Shown one piece after another: positions 2,210 to 21,028 of a stretch of DNA of 45,875 bases. The notes beneath the pieces are model-generated. The model was given only the letters and a program-made list of their open reading frames with translations. It was not told the origin of the DNA and did not search any database. The stretch is from Candidatus Limnocylindria bacterium. GTDB taxonomy: Bacteria; Chloroflexota; Limnocylindria; P2-11E. The first letter of the stretch is position 1, and each line of letters begins with the position of its first letter. The stretch lies in contig DATDEH010000015.1 in the NCBI GenBank assembly GCA_036523395.1, forward strand, positions 1 to 45,875, read 5' to 3'. A program made the position numbers and the translations under genes.

Positions 2210-2761
2210 GTGATGCGACCCCTTCGGTATTCCATCAACGTCACGCTGGACGGGTGCTGCGATCATCGTGAAGGCTTCGCGGACGAAGACTTACATCGTC
2301 ACGCGGTGGAAAACCTAGAACAGGCCGATGCTCTCCTCTTTGGCCGGGTGACGTACGAAATGATGGAGGCAGCGTTTCGGTCGCCGGCGCGGACGGGAAC
2401 GAGGCCCGATTGGATGGAACCCTTCGCCCGGACGATCGACGCGGCAAAGAAGTACGTCGTGTCGAGCACCCTGGACCGGGTCGATTGGAACGCGGAGCTC
2501 GTGCGCGGGGATCTGGGGAAGGCCGTTCAACAGCTGAAACGGGAGTCGGGTAAGGGACTGCTCGTGGGAGGCGTGAAGCTCCCGCTGGCGTTGGCGGAGC
2601 TGGGCTTGATCGACGAGTACGAGTTCGTGGTGCATCCCAGGCTGGCGGGTCACGGGCCGACGTTGTTCGCGGGGCTATCGGAGCGTATCGACCTGAATCT
2701 CGTGAGCCGGCTGGAGTTCAGATCGGGGGCGGTGGCGCTGCGGTATGAGCCCAGAAGGTAG
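2210..2761 (+). CDS. RibD C-terminal/dihydrofolate reductase-like protein
   Basis: This is a 183-residue protein of the RibD_C (YyaP/YwjB-like) family, which adopts the dihydrofolate reductase fold and probably uses NADPH. Family signatures are visible in order: the Y-S-I-N-V-T-L-D-G strand near the N-terminus, L-L-F-G-R-V-T-Y-E-M-M near residues 41-52, Y-V-V-S-S-T-L near 82-88, and the L-L-V-G-G-V-K-L-P-L-A-L segment near 116-127. The substrate is unknown. Such stand-alone proteins are widespread and are often annotated only as dihydrofolate reductase family. Start codons GTG 2210 and ATG 2213 are adjacent and either could be used. Confidence 0.85.
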   Translation: MMRPLRYSINVTLDGCCDHREGFADEDLHRHAVENLEQADALLFGRVTYEMMEAAFRSPARTGTRPDWMEPFARTIDAAKKYVVSSTLDRVDWNAELVRGDLGKAVQQLKRESGKGLLVGGVKLPLALAELGLIDEYEFVVHPRLAGHGPTLFAGLSERIDLNLVSRLEFRSGAVALRYEPRR

Positions 2762-2815
2762 CCATCGGGCGTGTCTTCTAGACTCCGCGCGACAGACGAC
2801 GTGGGGGAGGACGCA

Positions 2816-4456
2816 ATGAAGCTCGGACTGCACACGATCTTGCTCCGTGCGACTTCGACGATGCTCGTCGCAGCGCTCGCGGTCTCGGCTTGCACGAGCA
2901 CGACGACGCCACCCGGAGCATCGACCGCTCCGTCTGCGGCGGCGGCCGGGCCGGTGTCCGGCGGGACCGTGACGATCCCGATCGGCGCGGACCCGACGCT
3001 GAACCCCTGGAGTCCGAACGCCTTCGTGGAGTCGCTCTTCATCAACCGCGCGATCTTCGAGGGACTCACAAAGCCGGGCAAGGACCTTGCGCCGGCGGCG
3101 GACCTCGCCCAAAGCTGGACAGTCGCGCCGGATGGCCTGAGCTGGACGTTCAAGCTCCGCAGCGGCGTGAAGTGGAGCGACGGCAAACCCTTCACGGCCG
3201 ACGACGTCGCGTTCACATTCAACGACATCGTTCTCAAGCCAGACCTCGGCGCGCAGAACAGGGCCAGCTATGCGGCGGTCAAGAGCGTCACGGTCGTCGA
3301 TCCGACCACCGTGCGCTTCGATCTGACGCGGAAGTTCGCGGCCCTGGCGTCGTTCCTCGCCTACAACGCGGGCATCCTGCCCAAGCACGTGCTCTCCGCG
3401 AACCCGCTCACGACCACGACATTCAACAAGGGGATCCCGGTCAGCACCGGGCCGTTCAAGGTCGAGAAGTACACCTCCGGCCAGAGCGTCTCCCTGGTGC
3501 CCAACGAGAACTACTTCGGTCCGAAGCCGTTCCTCGACAAGGTCGTCTTCACCGTCGTGGCGGATCCGAACACACAGGTCGCGCAGGCGCTCTCCGGTGA
3601 CCTGCAGATCATGATCTTGGACAACAAGGCGGCGGTGGACCGCATGAAGAGCGCGGCTGGCCTTGTCGTCGTGGCGCGTCCGCTCGTGCAGTACTACTGG
3701 CTCTCGCTCAACCAGACCGACAGCCGCTTCACCGACGTGCGCGTCCGTCAGGCGTTCGTTCACGCGATCGACCGCCAGGCGATCATCAAGTCGGTCGAGC
3801 TCGGGTACGGCTCGATCGCGAACAGTCCGATCACGCCGGCCCTCGCCGCGTACTACGACCCTTCGCTCGCGTCGAAGTACCCGTACGACCCGGCGAAAGC
3901 GACCGAGCTGCTCAAGGCGGCCGGGTGGACGCCAGGCGCGAACGGCGTGCTTCAGAAGGATGGCAAGCCGTTCCAGTTCACGATGGATGTTGGACAGCGC
4001 GGCGTTCTCGAGCCGGTCAACGCGCTCATCCAGCAGGACCTGAAGAAGGTCGGCGTCGTCGTCGACCTGAACACGATGGAGTGGAACTCCTACATCCAGA
4101 AAGACGTGGTGCGTCGTGAATACACGGCCACGGTGAACTGGTGGACCTACCCAAGCGACCCGGACGTCTTCCCCTACTACCACTCCAGCGCGGCGGGCAA
4201 GGGCTTCAACATTCCGGGCTACCAGGACCCGAAGCTAGATGACCTGCTCGTGCAGGGCCAGAGTGCCAGCGACCTCGAGTCGCGCAAGGCGGTCTACAAG
4301 CAGCTCCAGCAGTACACCTCCGAGGTGCTGCCATACCTGTTCCTCTGGTACCCGCAGGAGATCGACGTGCTGAGCTCGTCGCTCAAGGGCGTGCCGGAGC
4401 TCGGCCTGCGTGACGCCATGCACTACATCGGCGAATGGTGGTTGGCCAAGAAGTGA
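2816..4456 (+). CDS. Family 5 peptide/nickel ABC substrate-binding lipoprotein
   Basis: This is the extracytoplasmic binding component of an oligopeptide/dipeptide-type importer. I chose ATG 2816, 546 residues, because a strong GGGGGAGGA ribosome-binding site lies just upstream and the product then begins with a clean lipoprotein signal. That signal is a basic start, a hydrophobic stretch, and the lipobox A-V-S-A-C with Cys26, followed by a Ser/Thr/Pro/Ala linker. Family 5 features include the early D-P-x-L-N-P-W pattern, the W-T-F-K-L-R-S-G-V-K-W-S-D-G motif near residues 108-121, and the V-R-Q-A-F-V-H-A-I-D-R segment. Two permease genes and a dipeptidase follow, which supports peptide uptake. 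No ATPase gene accompanies it. Confidence 0.92.
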   Translation: MKLGLHTILLRATSTMLVAALAVSACTSTTTPPGASTAPSAAAAGPVSGGTVTIPIGADPTLNPWSPNAFVESLFINRAIFEGLTKPGKDLAPAADLAQSWTVAPDGLSWTFKLRSGVKWSDGKPFTADDVAFTFNDIVLKPDLGAQNRASYAAVKSVTVVDPTTVRFDLTRKFAALASFLAYNAGILPKHVLSANPLTTTTFNKGIPVSTGPFKVEKYTSGQSVSLVPNENYFGPKPFLDKVVFTVVADPNTQVAQALSGDLQIMILDNKAAVDRMKSAAGLVVVARPLVQYYWLSLNQTDSRFTDVRVRQAFVHAIDRQAIIKSVELGYGSIANSPITPALAAYYDPSLASKYPYDPAKATELLKAAGWTPGANGVLQKDGKPFQFTMDVGQRGVLEPVNALIQQDLKKVGVVVDLNTMEWNSYIQKDVVRREYTATVNWWTYPSDPDVFPYYHSSAAGKGFNIPGYQDPKLDDLLVQGQSASDLESRKAVYKQLQQYTSEVLPYLFLWYPQEIDVLSSSLKGVPELGLRDAMHYIGEWWLAKK

Positions 4457-5450
4457 CCTTCGCCTGTCGGCTCCGGCTTTCCGGAGCGGCCTGGCCGCTC
4501 CGGCAGTAGCCCGCTTCCTTTTCCAGCGCGTCGCGTTGGGGGCGCTCGTGATCGTTTTCGCGAGCGCCCTCACCTTCTTCTTCGTCAACCTCGCGCCCGG
4601 CGGTCCGGCCTCGGTCATGCGATTCGACGTCACGGCCGAGCAGCGCGAGGCACTGATAAAGCGCATGGGCCTCGACAAGCCCGTCACGCAGCGATACGTC
4701 GAATGGGTCACCGGGGCGGCGCGTGGCGACTTCGGCACGTCGCTCCTGACGGACGAGCCCGTCACCCAGCGCATCGGCGAGAGACTTCCGAACACTCTCA
4801 TGCTCGCGGGCGCCGCGTTCGTGCTGTCGGTGCTGCTCGGTATCCCGATCGGTCTGATCCAGGCATTGCGCCGCGGGAGCCCGCTCGATCATGTGCTGAG
4901 CTTTCTCAGCGCGGTCGGACTCGCTGTGCCGGTGTTCTGGCTGGGCATCGTGCTGATCCTCATCTTCTCCGTGTCGCTCCACGTGCTGCCATCTGCCGGA
5001 GTGACCGGGATCACGACGGACACGTTGTTCGACCGCGCGCAGCACCTCGTCCTTCCCGCGGTGGTGCTGGCCTCGACGGTGCTTCCCACCATCGTCCGTT
5101 ACATGCGTTCGGCGGCGATCGAGGTCCTGCACGAGGACTACATCCGTACCGCCGAGTCGAAGGGTCTGGGGCCGCGCCTCGTCGTCACGCGCCACGTCCT
5201 GCGGAACGCATTGGTCCCGGTGGTCAGCGCGCTGGGGGCGCTCGTGCCGCGTCTTCTGGGTGGCGCGGTCGTCACGGAGGCGGTGTTCAGCTGGCCGGGC
5301 CTCGGCCGGCTCGCACTCGAGGCGGCTCAGGGCCGGGACTATCCGCTCATCACCGGCCTCACGGTGGTCGCCGCCGCCATCGCGGTCGGGACGACGCTGC
5401 TCGTCGATGTCGCGTACACGCGCATCGATCCACGGGTGCGAGTCGCATGA
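4410..5450 (+). CDS. DppB-type ABC permease (start uncertain)
   Basis: This is the first inner-membrane subunit of the peptide-type importer, with six helices. The permease loop motif E-A-A/E-S-K-G-L-G-P-R, followed by H-V-L-R-N-A-L-V-P, lies in the second half. The start cannot be fixed. ATG 4410 overlaps the binding-protein gene and would translate through the intercistronic hairpin. CTG 4491 and TTG 4536 are alternatives, and the last of these removes the basic N-terminus normally preceding helix 1. Conserved homology begins around R-F-L-F-Q-R-V at about 4512. Its stop overlaps the next start as ATGA at 5447-5450, indicating translational coupling. Confidence 0.85.
   Translation: MTPCTTSANGGWPRSDLRLSAPAFRSGLAAPAVARFLFQRVALGALVIVFASALTFFFVNLAPGGPASVMRFDVTAEQREALIKRMGLDKPVTQRYVEWVTGAARGDFGTSLLTDEPVTQRIGERLPNTLMLAGAAFVLSVLLGIPIGLIQALRRGSPLDHVLSFLSAVGLAVPVFWLGIVLILIFSVSLHVLPSAGVTGITTDTLFDRAQHLVLPAVVLASTVLPTIVRYMRSAAIEVLHEDYIRTAESKGLGPRLVVTRHVLRNALVPVVSALGALVPRLLGGAVVTEAVFSWPGLGRLALEAAQGRDYPLITGLTVVAAAIAVGTTLLVDVAYTRIDPRVRVA
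4470..4503 (+). promoter_or_regulatory. Intercistronic alternative hairpins
   Basis: Just after the binding-protein stop at 4456, segment 4481-4487 (CCGGAGC) can pair with 4470-4476 (GCTCCGG, loop CTTT). It can instead form part of a perfect 11-bp hairpin, CCGGAGCGGCC at 4481-4491 pairing with GGCCGCTCCGG at 4493-4503. The two structures exclude each other. Placed between binding protein and permease, they could protect the upstream message or reduce permease expression, as intercistronic repeats do in other binding-protein operons. The function is inferred. Confidence 0.6.
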
Positions 5451-6281: not shown

Positions 6282-7502
6282 ATGAAGACAGCCGATATCG
6301 GCAAGCGCACGAAGTACTCCGGCTACTCGAGCTTCCAGTACCTCGAGGGCGGCACTGACTACCGCGAGTTCGAGCTCGCGAAAGAGCTCGACCGCGTTCC
6401 GTCGCGCAAGGTCGAGGTCAGCGGCGCGCAGGAGCAGCGTGTCCAGCGCCTCCTCGACGAGAACCTCGCGGTCTCGCTGCACGATCACTGCTTCGTTGTC
6501 CCCGCGGACTTCGACGATCTCGCGGAGTACCGCCGCCAGGGCCGCGATGTCACGGGCTACGCCGGGATGGCGCAGTCCGGCCTCGACGCGGTGTTCGACT
6601 GCCTCATGGACGGTACCGCGACGATCACGTCGAAGGCGGGCTGGAAGTGGGACGACATCATCTACGACCTCGGCATGCGCCTCTCAGACATCGCGCATCA
6701 GGACTTCATCGTCCGCGGCGAAACGCTCGAAGACATCCGCCAGGCCAAGGCGAACGGTCAGATCGCGTTCATCGCGTCGCTCGAGGCCGCGACGGCGATC
6801 GAGAACGAAGTCGACCGCCTCGACATCCTCTACGGCCTGGGCATACGGTCATCGGGCATCGCGTACAGCGAGGCGAACACGCTGGGCAGCGGCTTGAAGG
6901 AAGCGCGCGACGGCGGCCTCACCGAATTCGGTCGCCAGGCGGTCCGGCGCATGAACAAGCTCGGGATCGCCATCGACATCTCACACTCTGGCGACCAGAC
7001 GTGCCTGGACACGATCGAAGTCAGCGAGAAGCCGATCTTCATCACGCACGCCGGCGCGCGCGGGCTGTGGAACACGAAGCGGATGAAGCCGGATGAGGTC
7101 CTGAAGGCCATGGCCGCGAAGGGCGGCGTCATCGGTATCGAGGCCGCTCCGCACACAACGTTGACCAAGGCACACCCGAAGCATTCCATCGAGAGCTTCA
7201 TGGAGCACTTCGAGTACTGCGCCGACCTCGTCGGGATCGACCATGTCGCGTTCGGTCCCGACACTCTGTTCGGCGACCACGTCGGGCTGCACCACTACTT
7301 CGCGAAGCAGCTCTCGATCAAGTCAGCGCACGGCGCGCAGGCCTTCGAGGAGGTCGAGTACGTCGACGGGATCGAGAACCCGGCGGAGGCGTTCCCGAAC
7401 ATCGTTCGCTGGCTCGTGAAGCACGATTACTCGGACGGCGACATCACCAAGGCCATCGGAGGGAACGTGATGCGCGTGCTCGAGGAGGCGTGGTTCCGGT
7501 AA
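6282..7502 (+). CDS. M19 (renal/membrane dipeptidase-like) peptidase
   Basis: This is a 406-residue amidohydrolase-fold dipeptidase, expected to use two zinc ions to cleave dipeptides with little residue specificity, including ones carrying D-residues. The early S-L-H-D-H-C motif provides the H-x-D/H zinc pair, here with the first residues H-D-H. E168-like Glu occurs in the A-S-L-E-A-A-T segment. D-I-S-H-S-G and I-T-H-A-G-A-R supply the later histidines, and G-I-D-H-V-A-F-G-P-D the last conserved Asp region. No signal peptide is visible, so it probably acts in the cytoplasm on imported peptides. A strong AGGGGAGGA ribosome-binding site precedes ATG 6282. Twelve-base perfect palindromes lie at 6256-6267 and 6291-6302. 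Confidence 0.9.
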   Translation: MKTADIGKRTKYSGYSSFQYLEGGTDYREFELAKELDRVPSRKVEVSGAQEQRVQRLLDENLAVSLHDHCFVVPADFDDLAEYRRQGRDVTGYAGMAQSGLDAVFDCLMDGTATITSKAGWKWDDIIYDLGMRLSDIAHQDFIVRGETLEDIRQAKANGQIAFIASLEAATAIENEVDRLDILYGLGIRSSGIAYSEANTLGSGLKEARDGGLTEFGRQAVRRMNKLGIAIDISHSGDQTCLDTIEVSEKPIFITHAGARGLWNTKRMKPDEVLKAMAAKGGVIGIEAAPHTTLTKAHPKHSIESFMEHFEYCADLVGIDHVAFGPDTLFGDHVGLHHYFAKQLSIKSAHGAQAFEEVEYVDGIENPAEAFPNIVRWLVKHDYSDGDITKAIGGNVMRVLEEAWFR

Positions 7503-8256: not shown

Positions 8257-9215
8257 GCAAGATCGTCGGACTTCTGGTCGGGCGCGAGAACACCTTCCCC
8301 GGACCGTTCATCGAGACAGTGAACCGCAAGGGCGCGGCCCACGGTGTCACCGCGGAGCTCGCGCTCCTCGGTGGCACGCGCGAGCTCGAGCTGCCGCGCT
8401 ACCGCGTCATCGTCGACCGCATCAGTCACGAAGTGCCCTACTACCGCGCGCATCTCAAGAGCGCCGCGCTCATGGGCACCGTCGTCGTGAACGACCCGTT
8501 CTGGTGGGAGGCGGACGAGAAGTTCTTCGAGTGCACCCTCGCGCGGATGCTCGGCGTTGCCGTTCCGAAGACCGTCGTGCTGCCGAACAAGTCGTACATC
8601 TCCGACATCACCGAGCAGTCACTTCGGAACCTCAAGTACCCACTCGACTGGGACGACATCCTGTCGTACGTCGGCCTGCCCGCGATCCTCAAGCCCAACA
8701 CCGGGGGCGGCTGGAAGGACGTGTATCGCGTCGATTCCAAACAGGATCTGCTCTGGGCGTACGACCAGTCGGGGGGCCTGCCTCCAGGACAGCGCCCCAA
8801 GACGATGATCCTGCAGGAGTTCATCAAGTGGGAGGACTACGTCCGGTGCATCTGCATCGGACGCAGGGACATCCTTCCCATCCGCTACGACCCGACGGCT
8901 CCGTTCGCGGACCGGTACGTCGTGAACCGCCCGGTCGACGGCGAGCTGCGCGACCGCGCCGTGCATGACGCCCGCGCGCTCGTGGATGCCCTCGGCTATG
9001 ACATGGACACGGTCGAGTTCGCGGTCCGCGACGGGATCCTCTACGCGATCGACTTCCTCAACCCCGCGCCGGACTTTGACTCGTTCTCCATCAAGGAGGA
9101 CAACTTCAACTGGGTGCTCGAGAAGATGAGCGATCTCGTCATCTCGTACGCGACCGATGCGGCGACGCCGCCCTGGAAGGGCGACCATCGCTGGTGGAAG
9201 CACGTCAGGTCGTGA
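8253..9215 (+). CDS. ATP-grasp carboxylate-amine ligase
   Basis: This is a 320-residue ATP-grasp enzyme, a family that activates a carboxylate as an acyl phosphate and joins it to an amine or thiol. A lysine in A-I-L-K-P-N-T-G-G-G-W-K-D-V, near residues 145-158, fits the nucleotide-binding strand and glycine-rich loop. I-L-Q-E-F-I near 188 is the hinge strand. The metal-binding end is V-E-F-A-V-R-D-G followed by I-D-F-L-N-P-A-P-D near 252-273, with Glu, Asp and Asn in the usual places. The GTG start at 8253 overlaps the esterase stop, and its own stop overlaps the next gene as GTGA. The substrate is unknown; RimK and glutathione synthetase are distant relatives. Confidence 0.87.
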   Translation: MSKIVGLLVGRENTFPGPFIETVNRKGAAHGVTAELALLGGTRELELPRYRVIVDRISHEVPYYRAHLKSAALMGTVVVNDPFWWEADEKFFECTLARMLGVAVPKTVVLPNKSYISDITEQSLRNLKYPLDWDDILSYVGLPAILKPNTGGGWKDVYRVDSKQDLLWAYDQSGGLPPGQRPKTMILQEFIKWEDYVRCICIGRRDILPIRYDPTAPFADRYVVNRPVDGELRDRAVHDARALVDALGYDMDTVEFAVRDGILYAIDFLNPAPDFDSFSIKEDNFNWVLEKMSDLVISYATDAATPPWKGDHRWWKHVRS

Positions 9216-12568: not shown

Positions 12569-13300
12569 TCAGCTCGCTGGTGTCAGTGTGAACATCAGGT
12601 AATGGCCGCCGGCCGGGCCGGCGGTCAGCACGAGGCTCGCGCCGGGTAGGGAATAGGCGCCCTGGCCCGCGGAGACGGTACCGGTCATGGCCGCGTCGCC
12701 ACTCACGGTGAGACTTCCGTCGAGTACGAACAGCACGCGGAGTGACGGTCCCGATTGCCGGTCGACGCCTGTTGCGGCGAGGCGGCTGTCGGTAAGCGTC
12801 TCGGTGTAGGAACCCGCGGCGATCTGCGTCAGATCGCCCGTCGTGTAGAGCTCCTTCTGTCCGGGCACGATGATCGCGAGGGGGCGCGACGCTGCCGGAC
12901 GCAGGCCGATGAACCACCAATCGTTGGCGGACGTGCCAGGGTTGACGTGCCCGTGCATGACGGCGGCACCGATGAAGGCGGCTTTGCCGGGCTGGACCAT
13001 CACGGATGCTGCGCCGTCGACGTCCATCTGGTGTGTGCCCTGGACGGTGTAAACGAAGCCGGCGATGTGCTGATGCTTGATCGATCCGCCGGCCGCCTGG
13101 GGCAGATCCACGTAGTTGACGAACAGCGCGCCCGCGGGGATCGAATCGAGTTTGCCGGATGCGAGGATCGTGGCTGTTGCGCTCGGCGGTGCCGCCGTCG
13201 CGACGGCCGGCGCGCTCGTCGGCGCCGGCGCCGCCGCGCCTCCACACGCCGCTGCGACGAACAGGACCGTCGCGACGATGGGAACGATGCGTCGGAACAC
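12569..13300 (-). CDS. Cupin-like lipoprotein
   Basis: This is a 243-residue lipoprotein. The GTG start at 13300 follows an AGGAGG site. The signal ends in the lipobox V-A-A-A-C (Cys19), then an Ala/Pro/Thr linker. The exported domain looks like a cupin, with I-K-H-Q-H-I-A-G-F-V-Y-T-V-Q-G near residues 74-88 and M-H-G-H-V-N-P near 116-122, which give a set of histidines able to bind a metal. A second beta half contains Y-T-E-T-L-T-D-S-R-L and a strand-rich C-terminus. It is clearly homologous to the C-terminal part of the gene at 14928. It lies downstream of the cyclase-CRP gene on the same strand, separated by 115 bases holding a CRP-like palindrome. The ligand is unknown. Confidence 0.8.
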   Translation of the reverse strand: MFRRIVPIVATVLFVAAACGGAAAPAPTSAPAVATAAPPSATATILASGKLDSIPAGALFVNYVDLPQAAGGSIKHQHIAGFVYTVQGTHQMDVDGAASVMVQPGKAAFIGAAVMHGHVNPGTSANDWWFIGLRPAASRPLAIIVPGQKELYTTGDLTQIAAGSYTETLTDSRLAATGVDRQSGPSLRVLFVLDGSLTVSGDAAMTGTVSAGQGAYSLPGASLVLTAGPAGGHYLMFTLTPAS

Positions 13301-13405: not shown

Positions 13406-13425
13406 GCTGTGATGTTCAGCACAGC
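13406..13425. promoter_or_regulatory. CRP-like palindrome
   Basis: The 20-base element has perfect arms GCTGTG (13406-13411) and CACAGC (13420-13425). Inside it, TGTGA-N6-GCACA at 13408-13423 differs by one base from the classic CRP half-site pair TGTGA-N6-TCACA. It overlaps the stop codon of the cyclase-CRP gene and lies about 105 bases before the cupin lipoprotein start. It is a plausible target of the adjacent regulator; a chance match cannot be excluded. Confidence 0.45.
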
Positions 13426-14918
13426 GCGCGCAGAGCCTCCGCGTCGAGGACGGTGATGGTGCCCCGGTCCATCGCGAGCGCGCCCATCCTGACGAACTGA
13501 CCGAGGGCGCGGTTCACGTTCTCGCGGCTGGAGCCGACCATCGCGGCGAGGTCGCCCTGGGGCACCCGGACGGCGATCCGGACACCGCCGTCGACCTTCT
13601 GACCGTGCTTGTCCGCGAGCTCGAGAAGCTTGTGAGCGAGCCGGCCGGGCAGGTCCAGAAAGGCGATCTCGGCCAGCTCTTCGTCACCGCGCCGGACGCG
13701 ATCGCTGAGCCTTGCGAGGAGCCGTAGCGCGAGGTCAGCGTCTTTTCGCACCACGGCGCGAAGGTCGTCCCTCCCGAGCGCGACGCAGGTCGTCGCTTCC
13801 ACAGCGATCGCGTCGGCCGTGCGGACTCCGCTGGCCTCGATCGCGTCGAGCTCGCCCAGCGTTTCGCCCGGACCGAAGAGACCAAGGACGAACTCGCGTC
13901 CGTGTCGCGAAGTGCGGGAAACGCGCACCAGACCGCTTTCGATGACGAACATGGAGTCTGCCGGCTCACTCTCTCGCGTGAGATAGGTTCCCGCAGGGAA
14001 AGACCGGCGCCGCACGCGCGGTCCCAGCCCATCGGACACTTTTGGCGCGAGGCCCGCGAACAGCGGCGTGCGCAGCAGTACAGCCATCGGCTCGACGCCG
14101 CTGCTGACCAGTGCGGCGTCGAAGGCCAGCCGATAGGTCTGGACTGGAGCGCTTCGCCCAGCCAGCGTCACGATGTCGCCGCTTAGGAACGAGAACTCCG
14201 TGGCAGCCGCGCGAGTCGCCGCGTCGACGATGGCTTCGCCTGCATCGGCACGCGCAGTCAAACGGGCCGCGGTGTTGGTGATCTCGCCGACAGCGGTGAA
14301 GTCTTTGAAGCCACCGCCGCCGACGTTGCCGCAGAATTCCTCGCCCGTGGAGATCCCGACACCGATCTCCAGCCATGGGCCCCCAGACGCCCGGTAGCCG
14401 ACGGCTTCGATGAGCGCGGCTGCGGCGGCGACCGCTTTGCGCGGATAGTCGCCGCCGCTCAGCCCTGGAACGAATAGGCCCATCACGTGGTCGCCAGCGA
14501 CCTGGCCGAGGACGGCTTCATGCTGCAGAAGGACGCGCGAGGCGATGTCATAGAACCGTTTCAGACGTACTGGGACCACGTCTCGCGGCACCGATTCCGT
14601 CAGGCTCGTATACCCGCGGACGTCAGCGAACAGGATGCTGAGCGGGACGATCGCGCCGCCTTCGGGTGCCCACTCGAGGCAGCGCGCGCAAACGTGGGGT
14701 GTCTTCTGTGATGGGCGATAACCGAGGAGACGGAACGGTAGGGTGACCGGTCCGCCGTACGGAGCGTTGCAGAACTTGCAGCGCGGCCGCCCCGGGAAGA
14801 GCGCGAACAATCTTCGTGCGAGCCGTGGTCCGAGAGTCGTCGATCCGTCGCCGCGGAGGATCGCGGACCAGTGCGCGTCCATCTCGGGGTGGTTGCCAGT
14901 TGACTCAGACACTGCCAC
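13416..14918 (-). CDS. Class III nucleotide cyclase fused to CRP-type regulator
   Basis: The 500-residue protein has four parts. Residues 47-80 carry two C-x2-C pairs resembling a zinc ribbon. Residues 92-265 are a class III adenylate/guanylate cyclase domain with metal aspartates Asp99 (F-A-D-V-R-G-Y-T) and Asp143 (G-D-H-V-M). They also carry Asp206, Asn215 and Arg219. Residues 283-400 are a cyclic-nucleotide-binding domain; Glu356 and Arg366 have the ten-residue spacing of CRP Glu72 and Arg82. Residues 420-500 are a Crp-type helix-turn-helix (G-D-L-A-A-M-V-G-S-S-R-E-N-V-N-R-A-L). The usual substrate-specifying lysine is Gln139, and the usual Asp of the G-D-x-x-N motif is Glu212, so specificity may differ. 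The start could be GTG 14918 or ATG 14882. The divergent neighbour begins within 46 bases. Confidence 0.88.
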   Translation of the reverse strand: MAVSESTGNHPEMDAHWSAILRGDGSTTLGPRLARRLFALFPGRPRCKFCNAPYGGPVTLPFRLLGYRPSQKTPHVCARCLEWAPEGGAIVPLSILFADVRGYTSLTESVPRDVVPVRLKRFYDIASRVLLQHEAVLGQVAGDHVMGLFVPGLSGGDYPRKAVAAAAALIEAVGYRASGGPWLEIGVGISTGEEFCGNVGGGGFKDFTAVGEITNTAARLTARADAGEAIVDAATRAAATEFSFLSGDIVTLAGRSAPVQTYRLAFDAALVSSGVEPMAVLLRTPLFAGLAPKVSDGLGPRVRRRSFPAGTYLTRESEPADSMFVIESGLVRVSRTSRHGREFVLGLFGPGETLGELDAIEASGVRTADAIAVEATTCVALGRDDLRAVVRKDADLALRLLARLSDRVRRGDEELAEIAFLDLPGRLAHKLLELADKHGQKVDGGVRIAVRVPQGDLAAMVGSSRENVNRALGQFVRMGALAMDRGTITVLDAEALRALC

Positions 14919-14927
14919 TTTGGGGCG

Positions 14928-16211
14928 ATGGTATCGGCGAACATGCGGCGCCTCTTCGTTGGAGCGGCCGCTGTCGCGGCGAATCTCGGGTGGCTTCAGC
15001 TGGCTCCGGCGTTCGGTCTTCCGGTCACGGCACCCGCGGGGATATTGGACCGCGCACTCGGTGCGGATCGCGAGGCTGGTCCCGCGGGCTGGGCGCTGCT
15101 GCTAGTGGGTCAGGCCGTATTCGCTGCCCTCGCGTTCCTCGTCATCCTGCCTCGAAGGCGGGTGTGGCTGGCGTCGTTCGCGTTCGTCGTTGGCGCGTGG
15201 TTCGTCTCCGGAGCTGTCCTGATGCCTGTTATCGGGCTCATCCAAGGCGCCGCGCCAGCCGGCACCGCAGCCGCTATGCAGGCGAACTTCTTCATGCTGA
15301 ACCTTGGCCTGGGGGCTGCCGCTGAGGCACTGGTTGGATGGCTGCTGTTCGGTGGTGTGATCGCAGCCGGCGCGACGCTCAACGTCACCCCGAGGGCTTT
15401 CGCGCTTGCGGCCGGCGCCGCGGCGGTCGCCGCCGTCATCGCGTTCGCGGCGCCGGCGCTCGGTGCGCAAGCAGGTTCGGGCCGGCTCGTCGAGGGCCGT
15501 ATCGAAGCGCTGCCGCCGGCACCCGTCTTCATCAGCGTGCTTGAGCTCCCGCAGCCGGCTGGTGATGCGCTCATTCCGCATCCCCCACACATCGCCGGCT
15601 TCGTGGTCGACGTTTGGGGGACAGCGACGATGGTGATCGCCGGAGCGAATGTGGACGTTGCTCCAGGTGGAGCGGTCTTCTTGCCGAACCAACAGCCCCA
15701 CGACCACGAGAATCGCGCGGCGGCTCCACTCGCGATCGCTTTGGCCGCCGCGATGGTCGGCATGACGGTCGGAGTCGTCTTGCTGCAGGGTCGTGCGCCC
15801 GCCGTCGCGTTGATGGCGGCGCTGCTGGTCGCGGGCACTGTGGCGACGATCAATCCGTTGATGAACCACTGGTACTTCATTGGTGTTCGCTCGGCCACCC
15901 AGCGTGGCGGCCCGATGCCCGTACCGGCGGGGCACCGGACATACGAGTCCGAGAACCTGACTGGCCTTGCGAGCGGGCCCTATCTGGAGCAGCTCACGCA
16001 TCGCCGGCTTGGCGCCGGCGAATCCGTTCGCGTTGTCGGCCCCGCGGCGGTCGTCGTGCTCGACGGCCAAGTCTTGATCGCCAACGATGTACGAACGTTA
16101 CGTCTGTCCGCGCAGTCCGGGACCACGATCGCGGGCGGTACGGAAGCGACAGCTCGGGTCGAGTCAGGAAGCGCGCGAGTCTTGATCGTCCAGCTGCTAC
16201 CCGCCCGTTAA
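14928..16211 (+). CDS. Membrane protein with an interrupted cupin domain
   Basis: This is a 427-residue protein with roughly five N-terminal hydrophobic segments (about 10-30, 53-74, 80-105, 120-148, 157-180) and a C-terminal cupin-like domain from residue 198. The domain resembles the lipoprotein at 12569: both have an E/D-L-P-Q-x-A-G strand, an H-I-A-G-F-V strand, a histidine-rich turn (here H-D-H at 258-260), a W-Y/W-F-I-G-x-R strand, and a Y-x-E-x-L-T-x-x-R-L helix. Here residues 264-312, a long hydrophobic stretch able to cross the membrane twice, are inserted between the histidine turn and the W-Y-F-I-G strand. ATG 14928 or ATG 14943 may start it. The function is unknown; divergence from the cyclase-CRP gene suggests a shared signalling role. 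Confidence 0.75.
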   Translation: MVSANMRRLFVGAAAVAANLGWLQLAPAFGLPVTAPAGILDRALGADREAGPAGWALLLVGQAVFAALAFLVILPRRRVWLASFAFVVGAWFVSGAVLMPVIGLIQGAAPAGTAAAMQANFFMLNLGLGAAAEALVGWLLFGGVIAAGATLNVTPRAFALAAGAAAVAAVIAFAAPALGAQAGSGRLVEGRIEALPPAPVFISVLELPQPAGDALIPHPPHIAGFVVDVWGTATMVIAGANVDVAPGGAVFLPNQQPHDHENRAAAPLAIALAAAMVGMTVGVVLLQGRAPAVALMAALLVAGTVATINPLMNHWYFIGVRSATQRGGPMPVPAGHRTYESENLTGLASGPYLEQLTHRRLGAGESVRVVGPAAVVVLDGQVLIANDVRTLRLSAQSGTTIAGGTEATARVESGSARVLIVQLLPAR

Positions 16212-16287: not shown

Positions 16288-17736
16288 CTATGGCCCCTCG
16301 CCCCGACCGAGGTCGAGCGCAACGGCCGTCACGACGTCGCCGGCCTGCTGCAGCCGCGGCGTCTCGATGAGCGCGATCGTGTCGCGAGGTGTGTGGAGGA
16401 CGTAGTCGCTCCACAGGATCAATGACGACGGGACGCCGCGCTTCGCGAACGTCGTCTGGTCACTGCCCCCGCCGCGCATCGACTGGAACGGCACGCCGAG
16501 CGTCCGAGCCGCCGCGCGGATCCGGTCGACGAGCGCGGGGCTCTCATCGGATGCCTCGAGCGTGTTGCCGCAGCACCCGATGACGTCAAGGTTCAGATAC
16601 GCGACCAGACTCTCGACCCGTCCCGGAGACGCGGCCATGCGAGCGGCGTAGGCCTCGGATCCGAGCAAGCCCTCTTCCTCGCCGGCCCACGCGACGAAGA
16701 CGATGGAACGCTTGAGCTCGGCCCGTCTCGCTGTGAGCGCGCGTGCGACCTCGATCGTGACCGCGGGCCCGGACGCGTTGTCATTCGCGGCGGCGAAGAC
16801 CGTGCCGTCGGGATCGGTGCCGACGCCGTCGAGGTGGCCGCCAATGAGGACGGCGCGTTTCGCGAGGTCCGGTTCGTTCCCGCGCAGCAGACCGACGACG
16901 TTGATGCCCTCAACATCGCGCACCGCCGTCAATGGGAGCGACATGCGCACGGTCACGCCGGTCTCGAACGCCGGCGACGGCGCGGTCGGGTTCGATCGTC
17001 GCGCGCGGACGCTGCTCTGCACCTGCGCGACGGTCCGCGCCGCGGGCGCGAGAAGCTCGTTGGCGACCCCCTCCGTGATCACGAGCACCGGGAGCGTTGG
17101 CGTGGAGAAGCGTGGGATGAACGAATAGCGGATCGAGGTGTCGCCGACGACCAGGACGCCGACCGCGCCCTCCGCGAAGGCGCTCTCGACGACGCCGCTC
17201 GCCGTCGGGCCGGTCACGAGCGCGATGCGCCCGCGAGTCGTCACGCCGGCGTAGTCATCCTGGCCGCCGCCCTTCGCGCCGCCTCCGACCACGACGACCT
17301 GTGCCTCCACGGCTCCGTCGCCGGAGCGACCGCCGACGCTCTCGGTGAAGTCGATGCGGTGCTTCCACGACCTCTCGTCCGCCCCGGTTCGCGTCAGGGT
17401 CGGCGTCGCGCTGAGATCGACGATCGGCATCGAGAAGCGCTGGAAGTACGTACCGCCGTCGCCCAGCGGCTCGAGGCCGATCGCCTTGAACTGGTCGGCG
17501 ACGTACCGCGCCGCTTCCAGGTAGCCCGCCGACCCGCTGTAGCGGCCGCCGCGTGCCGGATCGGCGAGGTACGCGATGTGCTCGCGCGCCCGCGGTCCGT
17601 CGAAGACACCGGCGCCGGCGACGACGATCGCGGTTGACGGCGATACGGTAGATGAGACGCGCGGCGTCGGCGACGCGATGACCGGCGTCGGTCCGCACGA
17701 CGCGACGATGAGTGCGGCGAATAGGAGCCGCCTCAA
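16288..17736 (-). CDS. M28-family metallopeptidase lipoprotein
   Basis: This is a 482-residue exported zinc aminopeptidase-like protein. The TTG start at 17736 overlaps the preceding stop as TTGA. A short signal ends in the lipobox I-V-A-S-C (Cys14). A protease-associated-like region near residues 150-240 precedes the M28 catalytic part. Likely zinc ligands are His in I-G-G-H-L-D-G (about 297), Asp in A-N-D-N-A-S-G (about 317), the Glu pair in A-G-E-E-E-G-L-L-G-S (about 352), Asp in N-L-D-V-I-G, and His in L-H-T-P-R-D-T (about 446). It is a paralogue of the peptidase half of the adjacent fusion gene. Together they probably release amino acids or small peptides outside the cell for the coupled permeases. 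Confidence 0.88.
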   Translation of the reverse strand: MRRLLFAALIVASCGPTPVIASPTPRVSSTVSPSTAIVVAGAGVFDGPRAREHIAYLADPARGGRYSGSAGYLEAARYVADQFKAIGLEPLGDGGTYFQRFSMPIVDLSATPTLTRTGADERSWKHRIDFTESVGGRSGDGAVEAQVVVVGGGAKGGGQDDYAGVTTRGRIALVTGPTASGVVESAFAEGAVGVLVVGDTSIRYSFIPRFSTPTLPVLVITEGVANELLAPAARTVAQVQSSVRARRSNPTAPSPAFETGVTVRMSLPLTAVRDVEGINVVGLLRGNEPDLAKRAVLIGGHLDGVGTDPDGTVFAAANDNASGPAVTIEVARALTARRAELKRSIVFVAWAGEEEGLLGSEAYAARMAASPGRVESLVAYLNLDVIGCCGNTLEASDESPALVDRIRAAARTLGVPFQSMRGGGSDQTTFAKRGVPSSLILWSDYVLHTPRDTIALIETPRLQQAGDVVTAVALDLGRGEGP

Positions 17737-20105
17737 CCGGTCGCCGCCATCTCGAGCACCGACTGCAACACGACCTCGCCCGACGCGCGGAGGCGCGCGG
17801 GATCGACGGTCGTTGGCGTATCGCCGACGGTGTGGAACGGGCCGACCTCCGTGCCTGTGATCATCACCGCGGGCACCCGCCGGCGCAGGAATGTGAAGTG
17901 ATCGCTGCCCCCGATGCCCGATGGGTACTCGAGGTCGTAGCCGAGGCGGTCGGCCGCGGAACGCAGGCGCTGGTGCAGCTCGAAGCTCTCGTCGGACGCC
18001 GCGAGACCGCCGCAGCATCCGTCCATGTCGAGATTGATGAAGGCCACGATGTTCTCGGCGCGCCACGGTTGCGTGACGGCGTTGGCGAGGAACGCGTCCG
18101 AGCCGAGGAGTCCCTCCTCCTCGCCCGCGAAGGCCACGAAGATGACGGAGTTCTTCAGCATCGCCTTGTTCGCGGCGAGCACCCGCGCGATCTCGATCGT
18201 GACCGCCGGACCCGACGCGTTGTCGTTCGCGGCCTGGAACACCCTCCCGTCCGGGTCGGTCCCGACGCCGTCGAGGTGTCCGCCTATGACCATGAATTTC
18301 TTCGAGCGCTCGGGATCGGTCCCGCGCAGCATGCCCACCACGTTCGCCGTGCGCACCGGCTCGGGCTGCCGGAGCGAGACCTCGATGCGAACGCGCGTCG
18401 GCGTATCGAACGAGAGTGGCTGAGGTGTGCTGCGGACCAGGCTGGGCCGTTGATCCGCGCGGCGGCGTCGCTCCTGGAGCGCGCTGCGCAGGTCGGCGAT
18501 GCGCTTTCCCGACGGCGCGATGAGCTCGTCGGCCACCGTTTCGGTCACGGTGATGACCGGGATGACGTCCTTCTCGAAGAACGCCGAGTACGACGGCCGG
18601 ATGATGCCGAGCTCGGGTGCTGCGACGAATATCACGGCTTTGGCGCCGGAGCGGATCGCCGCGTCGATCGGATCGCCCTGTGTCGGTCCGGCGATCAGGA
18701 CGATGTTCCCCTCGGGGTGCGTTCCCTGGTAGTCGCTGTAATCCTGGGTCCGGATCCCACCACCGACGTACACGACGTTCCCCTCGGCCGTGCCGCTGCC
18801 AGCGCGGCCACCGACGCGCTCGCTGAAGTCGGCGCGCGGCGCGTAGATCCTCGGATCGTCGCCGGTGCGTTCGAACACCGGCATCGCGCTCAGCCTGACG
18901 ATGTTCGTTCCCCAGTTCTGGAGGTACGTGCCGTCGCTTCCGATGGGCTCGAGGCCGATCGACTTGAACTGCTCCGCGACATACCGCGCGGAGTCGTTGT
19001 AACCGGCGGACCCGGTGTACCGTCCCGCGCGCGCCGGGTCGGCCAGCCAGTCGACATGCGCGCGCGCCTTGGCCGAGTCGAACTCGCGCGCGATCGGGAC
19101 ATAGCTGCCCGCCGGTCCGACGTAGGGGCTCGCGAGGCGGAGGGCGACGAAGATCGCCACGACCGCGAATCCGGTACGCAGCGACAGGAGCTTGCCAAGC
19201 GCGACCGGTGCGCGCTCGAAGAACGTCCGCAGACCGTGCCCCATCAGGTTGAAGCCGAGGATCGCGCTCGCGAACGCGGTCGCGGGAACGAGCGCGATCC
19301 ACTGCGCGCGGTAGATCTCGAACTTCCCCTGCGCCAGAATTGCGCCCCACTCCGTCGTCGCGAAGATGAACTCGGTCCCGCCCCCGCGACCGGTGACATC
19401 GGTCGACACGTTCTGCCCGCCGCCCACGACGATGCCGAGAAAGCCGAGCTCGCCGAGCACGAGGAGGATCGCGCTCGCTTCGAGCGCCGCGGCCACCGCG
19501 AGCATCGGAAGCAGATTCGGAAGCACGTGGCGCGCGAACACAGCGAACTCCGAGAGGCCGAGCGATCGGGCGGCCTCGAGGAACGGACGCCCGCGCAGTG
19601 CGACGACGGCGGAGCGCGTCGCGCGGCCGAAGCCCCACCAGCCGGTGATCGCCAGCGCCGCGGCGAAGGCACTGACGCCCGAGCGGATGTCGAGGGCGAA
19701 GATCCAGAGCATCGCGAAGAGGACCGTCGGGAACGCGCCGAACGCGTCGATGAGCGCGGACACGCCGCGGTCGAGCGACGAGCCGGCGAACCAGCCCGCG
19801 AGCGCGCCGAGCGTCGTCCCAACGACGAGGCGCACCGCGAGCACGACGAACGCGATCGTGAGCGTCGCGCGCGCGCCGTACATGACGCCCGCCCACAGGT
19901 CGCGGCCGTTGCGATCGGAGCCGAGCGGGTAGCCGTACGTTCCTGGGTCGTACGGCGCGAGGACCGAGCGCGGACCGTCGATGATCAGCGTCGTGCTCTT
20001 GAGCGGATCGACGTTCGTGAGGAGCGGCGCCGCGAGTCCGAGGAAGATCCAGCCGCCGATGATCGCCGCGCCGATGATGAGCTGCCACGTGAGCGCGCGG
20101 CGCAT
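17733..20105 (-). CDS. DppC-type ABC permease fused to M28 zinc peptidase
   Basis: A single open frame of 790 residues joins two proteins. Residues 1-300 are a DppC/OppC-type permease: an N-terminal helix at 8-28, Y-P-L-G-S-D-R-N-G-R-D-L at 59-70, and the coupling loop S-L-G-L-S-E-F-A-V-F-A-R-H-V-L-P at 181-196. Residues 311-327 form an extra hydrophobic helix. Residues 343-790 are a protease-associated region and an M28 peptidase with apparently complete zinc ligands: His610, Asp628, Glu662/663, Asp693 and His757. The extra helix would place the peptidase on the outer face. ATG 20105 overlaps the DppB-type stop, and the stop overlaps the start of the M28 lipoprotein gene. No frame break is visible. 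Confidence 0.87.
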   Translation of the reverse strand: MRRALTWQLIIGAAIIGGWIFLGLAAPLLTNVDPLKSTTLIIDGPRSVLAPYDPGTYGYPLGSDRNGRDLWAGVMYGARATLTIAFVVLAVRLVVGTTLGALAGWFAGSSLDRGVSALIDAFGAFPTVLFAMLWIFALDIRSGVSAFAAALAITGWWGFGRATRSAVVALRGRPFLEAARSLGLSEFAVFARHVLPNLLPMLAVAAALEASAILLVLGELGFLGIVVGGGQNVSTDVTGRGGGTEFIFATTEWGAILAQGKFEIYRAQWIALVPATAFASAILGFNLMGHGLRTFFERAPVALGKLLSLRTGFAVVAIFVALRLASPYVGPAGSYVPIAREFDSAKARAHVDWLADPARAGRYTGSAGYNDSARYVAEQFKSIGLEPIGSDGTYLQNWGTNIVRLSAMPVFERTGDDPRIYAPRADFSERVGGRAGSGTAEGNVVYVGGGIRTQDYSDYQGTHPEGNIVLIAGPTQGDPIDAAIRSGAKAVIFVAAPELGIIRPSYSAFFEKDVIPVITVTETVADELIAPSGKRIADLRSALQERRRRADQRPSLVRSTPQPLSFDTPTRVRIEVSLRQPEPVRTANVVGMLRGTDPERSKKFMVIGGHLDGVGTDPDGRVFQAANDNASGPAVTIEIARVLAANKAMLKNSVIFVAFAGEEEGLLGSDAFLANAVTQPWRAENIVAFINLDMDGCCGGLAASDESFELHQRLRSAADRLGYDLEYPSGIGGSDHFTFLRRRVPAVMITGTEVGPFHTVGDTPTTVDPARLRASGEVVLQSVLEMAATG

Positions 20106-21028
20106 CAGGACGCCGCTCCGGTGGACGCATGCACCAGACGCGCCGCGGCCGCGTCGAGCGCGAACCGGGTCACCGCGATCGTCACCACGAGAGCACCGAG
20201 CAGCGTGCCGGCGGTCGCGGCATCGAATCGCTGGATCGCCTGCAGCAGCGAGAAGCCAAGCCCCGGCCACGAGAAGAACACTTCGACGACCGGCAGCGTC
20301 GAGAGTCCGATCGAAAGCGCGGCGGCGATCGCGCCGAGGATCGGCACGAGCGCGTTGCGCAGCGCATGGCGACCGATGACGACGCGCTCGAGGAGGCCCT
20401 TTGACCGTGCGGTGCGCACATGGTCCGCGCCGAGTTCTTCGTCGACGGCGACGAACGCGAAGTTCGCGATCTGGGCGAACGGGCGCGCGGCGAGGACGAA
20501 CGTCGGAAGGATGAGATGGTCGTCGACGCCGAAACCGAAGCTCGGCCAGAGGCGGATGTTGTAACGGCGCACCATCTCGGCCGACAACAGGATGAGGAGG
20601 ATCGCGAGGAGGAACGACGGCGTCGAGATCACCGCGGTCATGCTGCCGACGAGCACCGCCCGCAGCCGCGTGCTGCGGGTGGCTGCGGCGACCACACCGA
20701 CGGTGACGCCGAACACCGTGGCCAGCGTCACCGCGAGGCCGACGAGCAGCATGCTCTTGGGGTACGCGTCGAGCAGCACCTCGCCCATCGAGCGCCGCCG
20801 TCCACCGAGGATCGATGTCGACGTGGCCTCGCCGAGCGAGCCCTGGAAGAGGCTCGCGAAGTAGTCCTGTGTCCCTTCCCAAGCTTGCTGGAGGATGTCG
20901 GCGATGGGCGCGTGATCGAAGCGGGAGCGTGCCGCGACGAGGGCGATCTGCGCGAGCACGACGATGAGAACGAAGGTGAAGATGACGAGCAGGACGCGCG
21001 TGAGGATCGCGACGGCAGCGCGACTCAA
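20105..21028 (-). CDS. DppB-type ABC permease
   Basis: This is a peptide-type permease of about 307 residues and the partner of the permease-peptidase fusion. It has an N-terminal helix, then a long extracytoplasmic region, then the helical core. The coupling loop T-A-R-S-K-G-L-L-E-R-V-V-I-G-R-H-A-L-R-N-A-L-V-P and the later F-F-S-W-P-G-L-G motif are typical of DppB. TTG 21028 is the best start: it overlaps the stop of a possible seven-codon leader as TTGA, and homology begins just after it. The start remains uncertain. Its stop shares a base with the ATG of the fusion gene (TGATG). No binding protein or ATPase gene lies in this operon. Confidence 0.85.
   Translation of the reverse strand: MSRAAVAILTRVLLVIFTFVLIVVLAQIALVAARSRFDHAPIADILQQAWEGTQDYFASLFQGSLGEATSTSILGGRRRSMGEVLLDAYPKSMLLVGLAVTLATVFGVTVGVVAAATRSTRLRAVLVGSMTAVISTPSFLLAILLILLSAEMVRRYNIRLWPSFGFGVDDHLILPTFVLAARPFAQIANFAFVAVDEELGADHVRTARSKGLLERVVIGRHALRNALVPILGAIAAALSIGLSTLPVVEVFFSWPGLGFSLLQAIQRFDAATAGTLLGALVVTIAVTRFALDAAAARLVHASTGAAS

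Follow-up and report, generated by a model that had tools for sequence, protein, structure and literature searches.

We identified a single gene that joins a Cys4 class III cyclase to a complete CRP-type regulator in the 45,875-nucleotide stretch of soil-bacterium DNA analyzed here (the window). We hold with moderate confidence that its product is a CRP-type regulator whose input module comes from a former Cys4 class III cyclase, one that would still bind nucleotide and would be losing catalysis. Because four of the five fusions found have lost an essential residue of the cyclase half, the combined protein probably acts as a switch that senses nucleotide and not as a circuit that feeds itself.

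Architecture of the fusion protein

The reading frame starts at a GTG at position 14918 and encodes 500 amino acids on the minus strand (Table 1). From the N to the C terminus, the protein carries a Cys4 element, a class III cyclase domain, a cyclic-nucleotide-binding (CNB) domain, and a Crp helix-turn-helix (HTH). This is the order proposed in the initial annotation, all parts of which were recovered, the Cys4 element by its residues and the others by Pfam. Guanylate_cyc matched at 28.2 bits (cutoff, 21.9), cNMP_binding at an E value of 1.3e-21, and HTH_Crp_2 at an E value of 4.7e-18. In an alignment of the five fusions with four unfused cyclases, PF00211 matched all nine members (E ≤ 0.01), and PF00027 and PF13545 matched five. 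A cNMP_binding domain followed by a Crp HTH is the arrangement of the CRP/FNR family, and the class III cyclase fold was recognized both by PF00211 (above the cutoff in the window protein) and by Foldseek (3r5g and 2w01). An AF2 model of residues 1 to 280, built from 34 sequences, had a mean pLDDT of 78.9 and showed the class III fold; its best Foldseek matches were CyaB (3r5g) and Cya2 (2w01, titled guanylyl cyclase Cya2), at E values of about 1e-15. The full-length AF2 model, built from 4 near-identical sequences, had a mean pLDDT of 35.3 and was set aside.

The two C-x2-C pairs pointed out earlier (Cys47/50 and Cys77/80) were invariant in all 24 relatives compared (5 fused and 19 unfused). 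No named Pfam family matched this element in a scan of the window protein, and the AF2 blocks at residues 41 to 90 had a pLDDT of about 66 to 79; it is probably a zinc ribbon, with zinc as the predicted ligand. In the C-terminal half, the CRP-like Glu356/Arg366 pair of the initial annotation lies, as proposed, within a G-E-L...R-T-A stretch that aligns with CRP proteins, and R465, E466, and R470 of the HTH were unchanged across the five fusions.

Table 1. Features of the fusion gene and its neighbors in the window
Feature	Position	Strand	Remarks
Cyclase-CNB-HTH fusion gene	13416..14918	-	Full-length orthologues L016, L017, L018, L020
Cys4 element C47-x2-C50 ... C77-x2-C80, probable zinc ribbon	14679..14780	-	
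Class III cyclase domain, residues 93-264	14127..14642	-	PF00211; AF2/Foldseek
D99, presumed first metal Asp	14622..14624	-	Codon GAC in window; His/His/Gln in three orthologues
Q139, presumed substrate-specifying Lys position	14502..14504	-	Gln in 5/5 fusions and the 6 nearest unfused cyclases
D143, presumed second metal Asp	14490..14492	-	Invariant
N215 and R219, presumed transition-state residues	14262..14276	-	R219 is Gly in L020
Cyclic-nucleotide-binding domain, residues 304-392, with E356 and R366	13743..14009	-	PF00027
Crp-type winged HTH, residues 425-499, recognition helix SRENVNRAL	13422..13646	-	PF13545
Candidate -10 box of fusion gene, TACCAT	14928..14933	-	Conserved TAC(C/G)AT, five loci aligned
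Membrane protein with cupin domain, divergent	14928..16211; start probably 14943	+	
Lipoprotein-like cupin, downstream; distant relative of membrane cupin	12569..13300	-	PF07883

The cyclase active site

We take D99 and D143 to be the metal-binding residues of class III cyclases and N215/R219 to be the transition-state pair; Gln139 presumably replaces the Lys that specifies the substrate, and Thr208 occupies the Asp/Thr position. In the alignment, the window protein keeps all four of D99, D143, N215, and R219. The two metal Asp residues expected of an active cyclase are thus present, D99 being missing in three of the four orthologues, and so is the transition-state Asn and Arg pair, R219 being missing in one of the four. 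With all catalytic residues kept, the window copy may be active. The combination of Gln139 and Thr208 differs from the Lys with Asp or Thr of canonical adenylyl cyclases, and Gln139 also differs from the Glu aligned with it in Cya2 (2w01), as regards canonical guanylyl cyclases. The Mycobacterium tuberculosis cyclase Rv0386 has a Gln (Gln57) at the Lys position.

All six of the nearest unfused cyclases (L024 to L028 and L040) have Gln at position 139, so the change from Lys predates the fusion and, as a clade-wide trait older than the fusion, is no mark of decay in the window protein. The initial annotation was right that the Lys is replaced by Gln. Glu212, which it noted in place of the Asp of a G-D-x-x-N motif, is not a catalytic residue and was rejected as a sign of decay: solved structures have Arg (CyaB, 3r5g) or Ala (Cya2, 2w01) in this column, so E212 is uninformative on activity. 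The window's own genome (G000, 3.0 Mb) yielded 19 Guanylate_cyc matches, a rich cyclase complement.

Catalytic residues are lost in most fusions under continued selection

D99, D143, N215, and R219 were complete in one of the five fusions (the window copy) versus all 19 unfused Cys4 cyclases, a subset of all hits made up of the loci of the best matches only (Fisher P = 4.7e-4, with shared ancestry ignored). The unfused set comprised 6 Gln-type cyclases and 13 with Lys or, once, Arg. Left out of the count were the duplicates L013, L014, L015, L019, L029, and L033 (identical in DNA to L016, L017, L018, L024, L022, and L023, respectively), all cyclases without the Cys4 element, and the partial sequences L021 and L055, which were also catalytically complete. 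Asp99 was replaced by His in L016 and L017 and by Gln in L018, which in addition has Gln instead of the CNB Arg366, and Arg219 was replaced by Gly in L020. On the tree, these losses require at least two events; three of the four lie in one family and may reflect a single event, L016 and L017 sharing His99. The 19 unfused cyclases share 37 invariant columns, and the fusions depart from 8 of these, D99 and R219 included, so the catalytic residues are no longer protected yet are not singled out. Lack of cyclase activity together with degenerate sites in all close homologues had been named at the outset as what would argue against a role in synthesis; degenerate sites were found in four of the five fusions, which lack Asp99 or Arg219, and the window copy is complete.

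Despite the catalytic losses, the cyclase domain is under strong purifying selection. Its dN/dS ratios were 0.09 to 0.17 over 10 fusion pairs, and they are rough because dS was near or above 1 in many of them. The dN of the cyclase domain was lower than that of the CNB domain in 8 of the 10 pairs, in most pairs no other part of the protein was as conserved as the Cys4/cyclase region, and D143, T208, N215, Q139, and the four Cys residues were invariant in all five fusions. Neither decay nor catalysis fits this pattern of conservation as well as a role in binding or allostery does.

Distribution and origin of the fusion

Searches for this architecture, as the initial annotation had suggested, returned single-ORF fusions in five Chloroflexota genomes, that of the window included. 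The four other full-length orthologues (80 to 67% identity) all come from other Chloroflexota genomes, those at 80, 79, and 75% identity from the Chloroflexi MAGs UBA4730, CF_86, and CF_38 (G026, G004, and G010 of the whole-genome set) and the fourth, at 67%, from G113, a genome of another class whose contig may be misbinned. Since four other assemblies carry the fusion end to end, it is no assembly accident. Whole-genome screening covered the Chloroflexota. Genomes with a full-length fusion numbered 4 among the 28 screened in the family (a fifth match, in G013, being an unfused cyclase), 4 among 177 in the class, 1 among 110 in the class of G113, and 4 among 400 in the phylum sample; these samples overlap, and the total is five fusion genomes. 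Three genomes of the window's own genus had no match at E ≤ 1e-60. This absence, together with the patchy distribution, makes module loss or horizontal transfer likely.

The fused clade was monophyletic in both halves (support of 100/100 for the cyclase and 100/99 for the CRP). The cyclase half was sister to the six unfused Gln-type cyclases, in a clade of 11 supported at 100/99, and the CRP half grouped with CRPs from the class of G113. These trees and the gene neighborhoods argue for one fusion event in which a Gln-type cyclase, already divergent from a membrane-cupin gene, was joined to a CRP. A same-strand class III cyclase gene directly adjoined 7 of the 24 unfused CRPs of the fusion's CRP group, upstream of the CRP in L043 and L051 and downstream in L048, L052, L053, L054, and L057; these neighborhoods look like two synteny types rather than seven independent cases. 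Within 1.5 kb, a cyclase was found at 10 of 31 CRP loci, among them L027 and L069, which had been selected on account of a cyclase. In G420 (L074), one gene intervenes between the cyclase and a CRP gene about 0.9 kb away; the cyclase contig of G541 (L076) also encodes a CRP and a CNB-only protein.

Candidate fusions outside this clade were rejected. Among 501 plasmid-collection records, just that of Nonomuraea gerenzanensis (L069) matched 80% or more of the query length, and there a stop codon splits a 724-amino-acid cyclase ORF from a 230-amino-acid CRP ORF. At this locus (2399 to 5266), the cyclase has Gln and Asn at the substrate-specifying positions, and the CRP gene follows in frame after the stop. 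Long open frames around the CRPs of L041, L042, L047, L048, L061, and L063 encoded a cyclase domain in none of the six cases (Pfam); in L042 (1480 to 3261, minus strand), a single open frame spans the end of a Lyase_1 domain into the CRP. Neither the full fusion nor its CRP half had a relative in viral contigs. Among the 600 pattern matches listed from IMG/VR contigs (L083 to L162), 581 encode relatives of class III cyclases, which may be viral genes or misassigned bacterial DNA.

The CRP half and its ligand site

Residues 280 to 496 matched M. tuberculosis CRP (3d0s) at an E value of 1.8e-36. Like CRP/FNR regulators such as M. tuberculosis CRP and Escherichia coli CAP, the fusion has a CNB domain and a Crp HTH, and it differs from them in the cyclase placed in front and in not keeping the CAP Thr127/Ser128 pair. 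The phosphate-site Glu and Arg of cAMP-responsive CRPs are present in the window protein (E356/R366), R366 being Gln in L018. CAP Thr127/Ser128 contact cAMP (excerpts of PMC10127613). By an alignment to CAP made by eye, these two positions are Gly-Asp in the window protein and Lys-Asp or Lys-Glu in the orthologues.

A divergent membrane cupin as conserved neighbor

A gene for a membrane protein with a cupin domain lies divergent to the fusion gene. Its start is probably the ATG at 14943, the only one kept in all five loci, which places the two start codons 24 bp apart in the window. The membrane cupin adjoined all four other fusions (62 to 77% identity) and was recognizable, on the opposite strand, at five of the six nearest unfused cyclases (L024, L025, L026, L027, and L040); the 12 loci with the remaining 13 Cys4 cyclases showed none in their flanks, which extended to about 1.5 kb at most. 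It thus appears to be an undescribed conserved partner that accompanies Gln-type Cys4 cyclases whether or not they are joined to a CRP. Relatives of the membrane cupin in L013 to L015, L070 to L074, and L076 were also seen, and its cupin domain is seemingly interrupted by a hydrophobic stretch. The lipoprotein-like cupin downstream of the fusion gene was conserved only in L015/L018 (80%). In its place, L013, L014, and L070 have a conserved secreted protein of 160 to 170 amino acids (6622 to 7134, 6619 to 7131, and 8458 to 8940, respectively); that of L013, the one of the three scanned, had no Pfam match. Genes were called with a simple predictor, and those at 16834 to 20882 are doubtful and were excluded.

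The divergent arrangement makes the shared divergent region the fusion's likely target. The candidate -10 box stands nine bases before the GTG of the fusion gene, a promoter role that its conservation would be consistent with. A TGTGA-N6-TCACA operator was not found between the divergent genes (best match, 7 of 10 positions), and a palindrome scan of the divergent region revealed no palindrome common to the five loci.

A model for the fusion and its alternatives

We propose that a cyclase of the Gln-type clade, divergent from the membrane-cupin gene, was fused once to a CRP. Strong selection has since preserved the fold of the cyclase and its presumed nucleotide pocket (G142-D143, T208, N215, and Q139), whereas catalysis became dispensable and disappeared two or more times among the sister lineages. 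Through a linker of 15 residues, the CNB/HTH dimer would respond to whether NTP and/or cyclic nucleotide occupies the cyclase-like dimer, and it would control the divergent membrane-cupin promoter; the window copy would either still work as a cyclase or have escaped erosion so far. Counting against a reading of erosion are the absence of any catalytic loss in the window copy itself and the small number of fusions known, five. The proteins might also be transition intermediates with two sensors in series, the pseudo-cyclase reading NTP and the CNB domain reading cyclic nucleotide, so that the promoter would read the ratio of substrate to product; this we advance only tentatively. If it is true, the window copy (complete) and its sisters (one residue lost) would represent an enzyme-to-sensor transition under way.

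The initial annotation had favored a self-contained circuit, and there is still a minority chance, low but not negligible, that the window protein is active as a cyclase and that the nucleotide it makes binds to its own CNB domain and drives the HTH, its degenerate sisters having lost synthesis secondarily and using nucleotide made by other cyclases. D99, D143, N215, and R219 are all present in the window protein, a Gln in place of the Lys is compatible with activity, as Rv0386 is active and reportedly binds its substrate in a different mode (excerpts of PMC3466318), and the CRPs nearest the fusion's CRP half adjoin cyclase genes at the 7 of 24 loci described above. However, four of the five fusions, versus none of the 19 unfused cyclases, lack a residue that normal cyclases need (Asp99 or Arg219), the positions of CAP Thr127/Ser128 are Gly or Lys and Asp or Glu in the fusions, and one fusion (L018) also lacks the phosphate-site Arg of the CNB domain. 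A private nucleotide source is, moreover, not needed, because the protein's own genome has 19 Guanylate_cyc matches. The circuit is thus weakened but may still apply to the window copy, and the hedge offered with it, that the cyclase may be a sensor only, is the better half of that interpretation, with four fusions catalytically incomplete and the window copy complete.

Two further accounts were considered. We think it improbable that the cyclase and Cys4 region is a dimerization scaffold or docking surface (e.g., for the membrane cupin) that binds no nucleotide: sister lineages do without catalysis, most pairs show their strongest conservation over the Cys4/cyclase region, and the cupin neighbor is kept with and without the CRP half, but the invariance of D143, T208, N215, and Q139 in all five fusions is not required of a bare scaffold. 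In mammalian adenylyl cyclases, C2 complements C1 in the active site (the C1/C2 division), and a fusion without D99 could likewise lend N215/R219 to the Asp pair of another cyclase, activity then needing the partner. The D99-less fusions do keep N215 and R219, L020 (without R219) keeps both Asp residues, and G026 and G010 have another Cys4-type cyclase match. Yet no Gln-type unfused cyclase was found in the fusion genomes at E ≤ 1e-40, the other matches having scores far lower than those of the Gln type, and G113 has no second cyclase at that threshold; such half-sites are therefore, in our estimate, very improbable.

Relation to known systems and significance

The closest precedent for such a fusion is found in the Mclx cyclase-LuxR fusions of mycobacteria. 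As described in excerpts of PMC4452763 and PMC3466318, the M. tuberculosis proteins (Rv0386, Rv1358, and Rv2488c) consist of a cyclase homology domain, an AAA domain, and a LuxR HTH; Mclx1 is complete and active, and Mclx2 and Mclx3 lack metal or transition-state residues and have been proposed to be allosteric ATP/cAMP binders (also PMC3938503). Rv0386 is an active cyclase with a different substrate-binding mode (PMC3466318, in part) and a guanylyl side activity of 20% (PMC4452763, in part). Both families thus have a class III cyclase and a DNA-binding domain in one polypeptide, with one member complete and others residue deficient. In contrast to Mclx, the fusion described here has a complete CRP, an N-terminal Cys4 element, and no AAA domain, and it comes from a different phylum and apparently had an independent origin; Pfam and NCBIfam scans of the window protein found neither an AAA/NB-ARC domain nor a LuxR HTH. 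The family appears to be a separate cyclase-CRP fusion with the same drift as Mclx. A title and abstract search of the open-access literature found no paper on a cyclase-CNB-Crp HTH polypeptide, which is weak evidence of absence.

Stand-alone Cys4 cyclases have the same Cys4-cyclase order without the CRP half (Chloroflexota L022 to L040; in an "adenylate/guanylate cyclase domain-containing protein" of Sinorhizobium meliloti pSymA, the match starts at the first Cys), and unlike most fusions, all 19 compared from Chloroflexota were catalytically complete. Adjacent cyclase and CRP genes (L043, L051, and L052; L069) are genetically linked as in the fusion but remain two genes. Clr, a CRP-family receptor that reads both cAMP and cGMP (excerpts of PMC10127613), belongs to the CRP family like the fusion's CRP half but is encoded by a gene separate from the cyclase.

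The family would represent a class III cyclase in midtransition, fused to the receptor family that reads its product. Enzymes turned sensors are well known among c-di-GMP domains. The natural series of one complete copy and four with a catalytic loss makes the need for catalysis directly testable, and it carries the caution that a cyclase domain alone is no proof of cyclic-nucleotide synthesis. The family also points to the membrane cupin as a putative conserved partner.
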